A stretch of DNA of 64,000 bases from Gammaproteobacteria bacterium (lineage in GTDB: Bacteria > Pseudomonadota > Gammaproteobacteria > Steroidobacterales > GCA-2729495): positions 62,001 through 126,000 of the forward strand of contig JADZBS010000003.1 in assembly GCA_020851975.1 (NCBI GenBank), read 5' to 3'. Below, piece by piece: positions 42,305 to 47,144 of the stretch. A program made the position numbers and the translations under genes. Under the pieces are notes generated by a model. The model was not told where the DNA came from, searched no databases, and saw nothing but the letters and a program-made list of their open reading frames with translations. Positions within the stretch are counted from its first letter, which is position 1; every line of letters begins with the position of its first letter.

Positions 42305-44389
<2,085 letters not shown>

Positions 44390-44435
44390 CCCTGTAGGAG
44401 CGACGCCAGTCGCGACCGACCCCCGCGCAACGCCA

Positions 44436-44626
44436 GATCAGCACCCCGTAGGAGCGACGCCAGTCGCGATCCTCTTCTTCCTCCCGCGACCTTCATCGCC
44501 ATCCCCGCGCCTCGCCGGTCGGACACCCGCCGGTGGAGGCTGGCGGGCGAGGCGGTGGGATGGTGGAAGAGAAGAATCGCGAAGACAAGGAATCGCGACT
44601 GGCGTCGCTCCTACGGGGTGCTGATC
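44436..44626. repeat. Perfect 35-bp inverted repeat framing 121 bp
   Basis: GATCAGCACCCCGTAGGAGCGACGCCAGTCGCGAT (44436-44470) recurs as an exact reverse complement at 44592-44626. The enclosed DNA continues an imperfect palindrome (cctcttcttcc with ggaagagaag; GCCTCGC 44509-44515 with GCGAGGC 44547-44553). Such a structure would fold into one long hairpin and looks like a unit that moves or duplicates as a whole. Confidence 0.85.
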
Positions 44627-44684
44627 GGGCGCAGGTGCTGGATTCGTCGCGACAGGGTGCTCCTGCACGTCGGCGCAGTCGGCA

Positions 44685-44821
44685 GCCTCGCCGGTCGGGC
44701 ACCCGCTGGCGGGCGTGTCGAGCCAGCGAGGCAGGATGCCGAGCGCCTGCGAGACCCGAGCGACCGCAGGGCAGGATGCCCGCAGGGAGCGTCCCGCCGG
44801 CGGGTGCCCGATCGGCGAGGC
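44685..44821. repeat. Second inverted repeat pair (29 bp) inside the nest
   Basis: GCCTCGCCGGTCGGGCACCCGCTGGCGGG (44685-44713) and CCCGCCGGCGGGTGCCCGATCGGCGAGGC (44793-44821) are reverse complements with two mismatches. A third related copy starts at 44509 (GCCTCGCCGGTCGGACACCCGCCGG). Confidence 0.75.
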
Positions 44822-44881
44822 GGTGGGTTGGGGGAAGATAAAGAATCGCGACTAAAGAATCGCGACTGGCGTCGCTCCTAC

Positions 44882-44920
44882 AAGTCGCTCCTACAAGGCG
44901 CTCCTACATGTCGCTCCTAC
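44882..44920. repeat. Three tandem 13-bp units
   Basis: aagTCGCTCCTAC, aagGCGCTCCTAC and atgTCGCTCCTAC follow one another without gap, directly after the last full 22-bp repeat. They are truncated copies of its outer half (GTAGGAGCGA read on the other strand). The stop codon of glgB lies in the second unit and its last sense codons in the third. Confidence 0.8.
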
Positions 44921-47144
44921 AGGTGCTGTTTCCGGCATGTGGGGCGTGAACGAGGACGATGCCGGCGAGCGGCGGGAGGGTCACCGCGATCGAGCAGGGC
45001 TGGTCCATCCAGGGAAGATCCCCGGCGTGCAGCGGCAGCGGATTGCCCAGGTCGCTGCCGCCGTAGAACCGCGAGTCCGAGTTGAGCGCCTCGTACCAGG
45101 TGCCTGGCGCCGGCACGCCGAGCCGGTAGCCATGGCGCGGCACCGGCGTGAAGTTCAGCGCCACCACCACCGCCGAAGCATCGTCGCGACGCACGAAAGC
45201 GATGATCGAATGGTCGGCGTCATCCCAGCGCAACCACTGGAAGCCGCGTGACTCGAAGTCGTGGCGATGCAGTGCCGGCTGTTCGCGATACAGGCGATTG
45301 AGATCGGCCACGAGCTGGCGCACGCCGCCGTGGCGCGGGTCGCCAAGCAGTGGCCATGCCAGCGTGCCGCGATGGTCCCATTCCTCCGCCTGCGCCAGTT
45401 CACCGCCCATGAAGAGCAGCTTCTTGCCGGGATAGGTCCACTGGAAGGTGTAGAGCAGCCGCAGGTTGGCGCGACGCTGCCACTCGTCGCCGGGCATGCG
45501 GCCGAGGAGCGAGCGCTTGCCGTGCACCACTTCGTCATGTGACAGCGGCAGGACGAAATTCTCGGTGAAGGCGTAGACGGGTCCGAAGCTCAGCTGGTCG
45601 TGGTGGAAACGCCGGTGCACCGGATCGTGCGCCAGGTACTGCAACGTGTCGTGCATCCAGCCCATGTTCCACTTCATCGAGAAGCCGAGGCCGCCGTGCT
45701 CCGTCGGCCGCGACACGGCGGGCCATGCCGTGGACTCCTCGGCGATGGTGACCGTGCCCGGGCACTCGCCGTGCGTGAGCTCGTTCAGGCGGCGCAGGAA
45801 GGCCACGGCCTCGAGGTTCTCGTTGCCGCCGTGGACGTTCGCCGTCCACTCTCCGGGCTGGCGCGAGTAGTCGAGGTAGAGCATCGAGGCGACGGCGTCC
45901 ACACGCAGGCCGTCGAAGTGGAATTCCTTCATCCAGTACAGGGCGCTCGACAGGAGGAAGCTCTGCACCTCGTGGCGGGCGTAGTTGAACACCAGCGTGC
46001 CCCAGTCGGCATGCTCGCCCTTGCGCGGGTCCCCATATTCGTACAGCGCGCTGCCATCGAATCGCGCCAGGCCATGGCCGTCACGCGGGAAGTGCCCGGG
46101 TACCCAGTCGAGGATGACGCCGATGCCGGCCTGGTGCAGCCGGTCGATCAGGTGGCGCAGGTCGTCGGGCTCGCCGAAGCGGCGCGTCGGGGCAAAGTAG
46201 CCCGATGGCTGGTAACCCCAGGATTCGTCGAGCGGGTACTCGGTCAGCGGCAGGAACTCGACGTGCGTGAAGCCGAGCTCCTGCACCCAGGCGACGAGCT
46301 GGTCGGCGATCGCCCGATAGCCGAGGAAGCTGCCATCCTCGCGTCGACGCCAGGAGCCGAGGTGCACCTCGTAGATGGACATCGGCGCCTCGAGCCAGCG
46401 CTGCCCGGCACGCCGGTGCAGCCATTCGCCGTCGCCCCACCGGTACGGCGACGGGCCGATGACGACGGAGGCCGTGGCCGGGCGCAGTTCGGCGAGCCGC
46501 GCCATGGGATCGCTCTTCAGCAGCACTTCGCCGCCGAAGCGGTTGCGGATCTCGTACTTGTAGACCGAGCGGGCGGCGAGTCCCGGCAGGAACAGTTCCC
46601 ACACGCCGCAGGCACCACGGCTGCGCATCGGGTGGCAGCGACCGTCCCAGGCGTTGAAGTCGCCGACGACGCTGACCCGTTCGGCCTCCGGGGCCCAGAC
46701 GGCGAAGCGCACGCCGGCCACGCCGTCGATGCTCACCAGGTGCGCGCCAAGGATCCACCAGGCGTGCCAGTGCCGGCCGGCGGCGAAGGCCTCGAGTTCG
46801 CGTTCCGGGATCTGTGGCGGAAAGCAGTACGGGTCGAAGAATTCGAGGACCCGACCGTCGTCGCGTTCGCATCGCAGCCGATAGCGCAACGGCAGGCCCT
46901 GCACCGGGCCGCAATACTCGAACAGGTCGCTGTCGCCGACGCGGTGCAACGCCACGTCGAGGTCGGGCAGCGTCATGCCCAGGGTGGCCGGCGCGAACGC
47001 GCGCACGCAGGCCTGGCCGCCGGGCAGCGGATGGCGGCCGAGCACGGCGAACGGGTCGTGGTGACGCGCCGCCAGCAGACGCGCAACGTCCGCATCGGCG
47101 GCAAGGGCAGTGGCTGAATCGTTCGCGTTCACGGGTGGCGGCAT
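44904..47144 (-). CDS. glgB: 1,4-alpha-glucan branching enzyme
   Basis: A 746-residue GH13 enzyme that cuts an alpha-1,4 chain and reattaches it by an alpha-1,6 bond. Two N-terminal CBM48-like modules (residues about 25-120 and 130-225) precede the barrel: [40 protein letters not shown] (nucleophile Asp), [10 protein letters not shown] (Glu) and [12 protein letters not shown]. The family normally ends near GIVLVHAP. Here 12 more residues ([11 protein letters not shown]) are present, the last of them encoded by the repeat nest, which also supplies the TAG stop. It is divergent from glgC. Confidence 0.95.

Follow-up and report, generated by a model that had tools for sequence, protein, structure and literature searches.

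A perfect 35-bp inverted repeat between glgX and glgB lies in a cluster of GTAG-type REPs and a second palindromic repeat in an uncultured gammaproteobacterium

The repeat cluster between glgX and glgB

The window analysed here, a 64,000-nucleotide stretch of the genome of an uncultured gammaproteobacterium, contains a cluster of palindromic repeats whose neighbours are the convergent genes glgX and glgB (Table 1). Four complete REPs occur in the order + + - -, and the second and third lie in arms that are exact inverted complements of each other, 35 bases each with 121 bases between them. Since the flanking base pair on either side is mismatched, 35 bases is the full length of the arms. About 1.6e-12 such pairs are expected in the window (69.5% GC), and all other exact inverted repeats longer than 14 bp within 700 bp, window-wide, fall inside the same cluster. 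Beyond the exact arms the palindrome extends outward, giving arms of 65 nt that are 82% complementary. As single-stranded DNA, the 191 nt from 44436 to 44626 are predicted to fold at -86.6 kcal/mol (z -12.9 versus shuffles). A sequence-only reading had described two perfectly complementary 35-base arms around 121 partly palindromic bases, and both parts of this description were borne out, the first by the exact match (chance about 1e-12) and the second by the inverted pair of decayed stems in the interior.

Table 1. Coordinates of the parts of the glgX-glgB cluster within the window
Feature	Position	Strand	Remarks
glgX	42305-44389	+	convergent neighbour
REP1, complete GTAG-type REP	44394-44415	+	exact GTAGGAGCGACGCCAGTCGCGA; begins 4 bp past the glgX stop codon
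Left 35-bp arm	44436-44470	+	flank GATCAGCACCCC, REP2 and T
REP2, complete REP	44448-44469	+	head-to-tail with REP1, period 54 bp
121-bp interior	44471-44591		TTCTTC-rich REP2 and REP3 tails containing TCGCGA copies; decayed second-element stems; core lost
Decayed stems of the second element in the interior	44499-44527 / 44535-44563		inverted pair
Right 35-bp arm	44592-44626	-
REP3, complete REP	44593-44614	-	GTAG outward; inverted partner of REP2
Flank common to other composite copies	44655-44684	-	GGTGCTCCTGCACGTCGGCGCAGTCGGCA; near-identical beside cores
Left stem, second element	44685-44713		93% complementary to 44793-44821
Conserved core, second element	44706-44800	+	two GGA-loop hairpins, GGCA-GGA-TGCC and GGGCA-GGA-TGCCC
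Right stem, second element	44793-44821		pairs with left stem
Tail-side ladder	44839-44867	-	14-nt unit with TCGCGA, 2.1 copies (TRF)
REP4, complete REP	44860-44881	-	end of the intact composite
Half-REP ladder	44871-44921	-	13-nt unit, 3.9 copies (TRF); outer end extends into the final codons of glgB
glgB	44904-47144	-	convergent neighbour

Each arm is made up of a 12-bp flank typical of the family (GATCAGCACCCC), the 22-bp GTAG-type REP (GTAGGAGCGACGCCAGTCGCGA) and a T. An intact composite repeat (about 44655-44921) adjoins the palindrome and consists of REP4, its tail, a stem, the core, the second stem and a shared flank; this flank, GGTGCTCCTGCACGTCGGCGCAGTCGGCA, is near-identical at one other locus (L142, on C92) and present in a shortened version at another (L041, on C128). 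When the tails of REP2, REP3 and REP4 were aligned, a pyrimidine-rich stretch containing extra TCGCGA was seen to be followed by a CCGCCTCGCC-type stem. Because the three tails align, we read the 121-bp interior as two ends of the composite repeat placed head-on with the middle lost. The two halves of this interior have diverged from each other.

In four sister species (G002, G003, G005 and G006) glgX and glgB end next to each other with no REP between them, and about 0.5 kb is present at this site in the window's genome. The site in G004 contains two GTGG-type REPs together with other DNA. In a check for target-site duplications, the empty glgX-glgB sites of the sister species proved too diverged for the junctions to be placed.

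A high-copy REP family with polar half-REP ladders

GTAG-type REPs are extragenic, high-copy palindromes of 20-40 bp, one end of which carries an unpaired GTAG or GTGG tag, and the 22-mer of the arms has all of these properties. Its fold comprises six unpaired bases that include the GTAG tag, a 5-bp stem (GCGAC/GTCGC) and a 4-nt loop. In the 2.85-Mb assembly it occurs in 206 copies at no more than two mismatches (104 forward and 102 reverse), and a reversed-pattern control returned no copies from the same assembly. The surroundings of the REPs were analysed for 165 copies in 74 clusters, these being the stretches fetched around matches to the REP or the second element; according to codon-model gene predictions made for this analysis, all but one of the 74 clusters (73) are extragenic, although 33 of these sit at contig edges or had no assignable gene on both sides. 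Closely similar GTAG REPs have been published, such as GTAGGAGCGCGCTCGCGCGCGA, which accompanies a RAYT in Xanthomonas campestris (PMC2817692). In common with the REPtrons of Xanthomonas and Stenotrophomonas (PMC2817692, PMC3733652), the family consists of a 22-bp GTAG-tagged imperfect palindrome with more than 100 extragenic copies, forms clusters in both orientations and is associated with a RAYT that lies between REPs of its own class, here in sister species. Unlike those REPtrons, it has a stem and loop sequence of the genus's own, a mostly head-to-tail arrangement with 31-35-nt linkers and ladders of half-REPs, and its cognate RAYT is absent from the assembly.

The exact 35-mer, by comparison with the 206 copies of the 22-mer, was found in the REP-bearing stretches fetched from the genome only as the two glgX-glgB arms. 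This rules out the 35-bp palindrome as the repeated unit, which the sequence-only reading had suggested it could be; the repeat is the 22-bp REP. Within the same stretches, the 34-mer that remains when the last T is removed occurs exactly 11 times, and 40 times within three mismatches. Because both arms carry a common form of the REP family, their exact identity needs no recent event of the kind that the earlier reading had inferred from it. Perfect inverted arms enclosing a non-coding interior are also what would be expected of a classical MITE bounded by 35-bp terminal inverted repeats and mobilised by a DDE transposase. We find such an origin barely credible, however, given that the exact 35-mer is confined to the two arms in the fetched stretches, that the repeat is a 22-bp REP whose arrays differ in order and spacing, and that a genome-wide DNA search returned just REPs and parts of the composite, with no copies of a bounded 191-bp unit.

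REP spacing in this genome is non-random. Direct pairs accounted for 73 of the 91 pairs of neighbouring REPs, with linkers mostly of 31-35 nt; 14 pairs were inverted with GTAG outward (linkers of 22-291 nt) and four had GTAG inward, all with linkers of 28-29 nt. The presence of REPs in both orientations, with segments between them, is shared with BIMEs, in which the inter-REP segments can capture other sequence such as rayt 3' ends (PMC2817692). Unlike in BIMEs with captured rayt ends, the segment captured here is a second dispersed repeat that is co-spread with the REP. The REP2-REP3 pair also resembles a REPIN (PMC3116915) in that the two REPs are inverted with GTAG outward and can fold as one hairpin, this being the one pair examined in this respect. 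It differs from REPINs in its spacer of 123 bp, which exceeds the 71 bp reported as the distance in GI REPINs (PMC3116915), and inverted doublets are not the main arrangement in this genome, where they make up a minority of 18 of the 91 neighbour pairs.

Within the fetched part of the genome, 33 runs of the REP 5' half were found at a period of 13 or 14 nt, and in 32 of these the last unit was a complete REP. The ladders always lie on the GTAG side of the REP, and none of the 165 REPs examined had a half-REP immediately adjoining its tail. An extra TCGCGA within 30 nt was present on the tail side of 34 of the 165 REPs and on the head side of six. Seventeen REPs had both a half-REP ladder and a tail-side TCGCGA, as compared with about 6.6 expected if the two were independent. 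Ladders of half-REPs on the GTAG side are unusual. Among the REP clusters retrieved for the sister species we found one adjacent pair of half-REPs only, and no mention of such ladders was found in the REP papers searched. At the glgX-glgB locus, the outermost half-REP (44904-44921) supplies the last codons and the stop codon of glgB.

Assembly breaks are frequent at REP arrays, with 29 of the 74 fetched clusters lying within 100 bp of a contig end (e.g., C45, C11, C99 and C144). Such breaks are compatible with the idea that the palindrome arose by repeat collapse or chimerism in the metagenome assembly. The glgX-glgB cluster, however, is located deep within a 152-kb contig, between genes that are also neighbours in sister species, and the same composite is present at other loci; we therefore regard an artefact as highly improbable.

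Classified by their flanking genes, 24 REP clusters lie between codirectional, 12 between convergent and four between divergent genes, indicating that REP clusters are rare at divergent promoters. This distribution, together with the convergent-gene location and the very stable fold of the palindrome, would agree with retention of the cluster for the benefit of the host, as a bidirectional terminator or a stabiliser of mRNA 3' ends between glgX and glgB. The same distribution is nevertheless expected if selection removes insertions from promoters, four sister species do without the cluster at this site, and a host function leaves the copy number of the REP unexplained. We consider such a role unlikely.

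RAYT genes in the genus and the origin of the palindrome

A Y1-transposase model identified two genes in the window's genome, L060 and L061, which scored 71 and 85 bits, respectively, with the NCBIfam model REP_Tyr_transpos (cut-off 80). Both are longer than the short RAYTs of sister species, and no REP was present near either gene in the 3.3 kb fetched; the proposed search for a REP-flanked RAYT thus yielded two Y1 genes, neither of them flanked by REPs, and no REP-flanked RAYT was found in the assembly. L060 (C76:18017-21343) has a weak DnaA-C-like match at its C-terminus. It is bordered by inverted flanks of its own, GGTGCCGGTGCATTTGATTATTTGATT and its partner, which are unrelated to the REP, and its flanks comprise the inverted repeats GGTGCCGG.GCATTTGA.TATTTGATT and short direct repeats, CGCTGACGGTGCC. 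In having REP-unrelated inverted flanks, this gene resembles the TIRYTs (Di Nocera et al., PMC3733652); it has no link to the glgX-glgB cluster.

In G004, G007, G008 and G009 we found short Y1 genes that have REPs of this class, as GTAG or GTGG variants, on their flanks. The three that were scanned (G004, G008 and G009) scored 130-151 bits with NF047646 (cut-off 80), and the short Y1 gene of G009 (L105), the sole one queried against solved structures, matched the E. coli TnpAREP structure 4er8 (5e-6). TnpAREP proteins cleave single-stranded REPs next to the GTAG-tagged hairpin (PMC8266576). In G002, G003, G005 and G006 neither a short RAYT nor a REP was found, and G001, at 73% completeness, yielded a single REP without a RAYT. 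Short RAYT and REP are accordingly present or absent together in eight of the ten species. Of the other two, G001 is too incomplete for such a call, and the window's genome is the exception, in which the REP is present and a short RAYT is absent from the 92%-complete assembly. A RAYT located between REP arrays would easily be lost from an assembly in which so many clusters lie near contig ends. The REPtron arrangement, a RAYT flanked by REPs of the same class, was found in the genus and not in this assembly.

The sequence-only reading had proposed that the palindrome could be mobile and moved by a RAYT-like transposase encoded elsewhere. This reading is partly supported: the arms are REP DNA of a high-copy, extragenic family, the site is empty of it in four sister species, and RAYTs flanked by the same REP class occur in the genus. 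No cognate RAYT was found in this assembly, so the case for movement by a RAYT comes from the sister species. We consider it probable, at roughly 85%, that four REPs of a high-copy GTAG-type family, spread by a RAYT, make up a BIME-like cluster with the palindrome at its middle, and that this cluster is interleaved with a second palindromic repeat. The REP family with its copy number and extragenic location, the empty sites, the RAYTs of sister species and the anatomy of the composite are all observed directly. From these we infer RAYT-driven movement in this lineage, and the order of events. REPs of this type do not move autonomously; a REP-associated tyrosine transposase (RAYT, Y1-HUH) recognises their GTAG tag and hairpin in single-stranded DNA, nicks beside the REP and then joins it at another site. 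Clusters grow by tandem and inverted copying. In the cluster described here, two facing REPs that share the 12-bp flank and have GTAG outward give rise to the exact 35-bp arms. Between these arms lie two copies of one composite end, each with the REP, the pyrimidine-rich tail and the second-element stem, the core having been lost. Counting against this explanation are the predominance of direct REP neighbours, unlike the inverted doublets typical of REPINs, and the lack of a REP-flanked RAYT in the assembly.

The inverted pair might instead have been made locally, if replication template switching copied one REP end in inverted orientation, with no need for two transpositions. The identity of the arms does continue for 12 bp past the REP, the 65-nt arms are still 82% complementary, and there is published precedent for template switching making the arms of inverted repeats alike (PMC8604942). 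Against this, the two halves of the interior have diverged, and the 34-mer has 11 exact occurrences in the stretches fetched from this genome, so that identical flanks need no local copying. Template switching at this locus is thus possible, if somewhat unlikely, and we favour assembly of the cluster from RAYT-spread REPs.

A second palindromic repeat family

The core of the second element gave 33 BLASTN matches in the window's genome (e.g., on C92, C121, C34 and C39). Across the genus, matches were obtained in seven of ten genomes by BLASTN and in nine of ten with a covariance model, which also gave weaker matches in nine other genomes of the order. When named genomes were scanned for an exact pattern, copies were found in MAGs titled Nevskiales bacterium PRO7, Gammaproteobacteria or Pseudomonadota. 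Several of these copies are identical in sequence to loci of the sister genomes, so that the genus is probably a Nevskiales-like lineage without cultured members. Since G001 has 23 BLASTN matches to the core and a single REP, the second element is independent of the REP, and it also occurs in genomes that lack the REP. No relevant description of it was found in the open-licence papers searched, and in a search of Rfam (4227 families) nothing appeared beyond matches to microRNA hairpins, all below threshold and located in the region of the interior stems.

In an alignment of 29 copies, 91.2% of pair cells were standard and 23 of 36 pairs had changed on both sides. The covariation score was 0.521, versus at most 0.112 for slid structures; the tested structure was derived from the same 29 sequences, so that the slid control favours it, although the gap is large nonetheless. 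Many positions of the outer stem had at least four pair types in this alignment. In helix 4, three of five pairs had changes on both sides and 94.5% were paired, with hairpin 1 being weaker (79.3% paired). The arms of 50 copies, taken at the best-fitting of several small offsets, showed a median length of 27 bp and 97% pairing, and their stems could be sorted into 22 sequence groups. The arms, of about 20-69 bp, keep their complementarity even though their sequences differ entirely from one locus to the next. A copy between dcd and fusA (L259, on C88) has perfect inverted arms of 69 bp. Copies are also present at prs-rplY in G003 and G006 (L170/L209) and at lipB-murU in G005 and G008 (L169/L208), where the arms of the two species are unrelated in sequence. 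As to whether the element inserts into ready-made palindromes, the sole empty site examined, at C3:60670 between divergent genes, was too diverged in the sister species for a comparison of its arms.

The second element has GGA in hairpin loops with covarying stems, and in its GGA-bearing small hairpin loops it resembles CsrA-decoy RNAs of the CsrB/RsmZ type. Some copies contain ACAGGGATGT, which we take to fit the CsrA selection consensus, and a CsrA gene is present in the genome. Beside codirectional genes, the GGA strand was sense in 16 cases and antisense in 11, and this absence of bias does not favour a read-through RNA. Unlike CsrB/RsmZ-type RNAs, the second element consists of dispersed repeats, known from DNA alone, without strand bias to neighbouring genes. 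A role as a CsrA sponge is a remote option at most: the GGA loops and the CsrA gene are present, yet strand bias is lacking.

Change of the arms with pairing retained would fit either selection on the hairpin or template switching. We tentatively suggest, while regarding it as doubtful, that this is an undescribed structured repeat whose conserved centre seeds or keeps palindromes with locally made arms. The centre, about 80-90 nt long and bearing two hairpins with GGA loops, would act as a palindrome seed, and a strand switch during replication at its hairpins would copy one flank across, creating arms from local DNA. In this genome, the REP family would have picked up the element and spread it as a REP-ended composite.

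In kind, the cluster between glgX and glgB is ordinary, a BIME-type group of GTAG REPs from a new lineage; what is unusual about it is the second palindromic family and the half-REP ladders, both of which stand apart from the definition of REPs. The REP/RAYT systems hereby gain a genus of uncultured Gammaproteobacteria. With their strict polarity, the half-REP ladders record REP growth and could help to discriminate between cut-and-join and slippage models. The second family, finally, provides a natural test of whether the arms of palindromes are kept alike by structural selection or by template switching.
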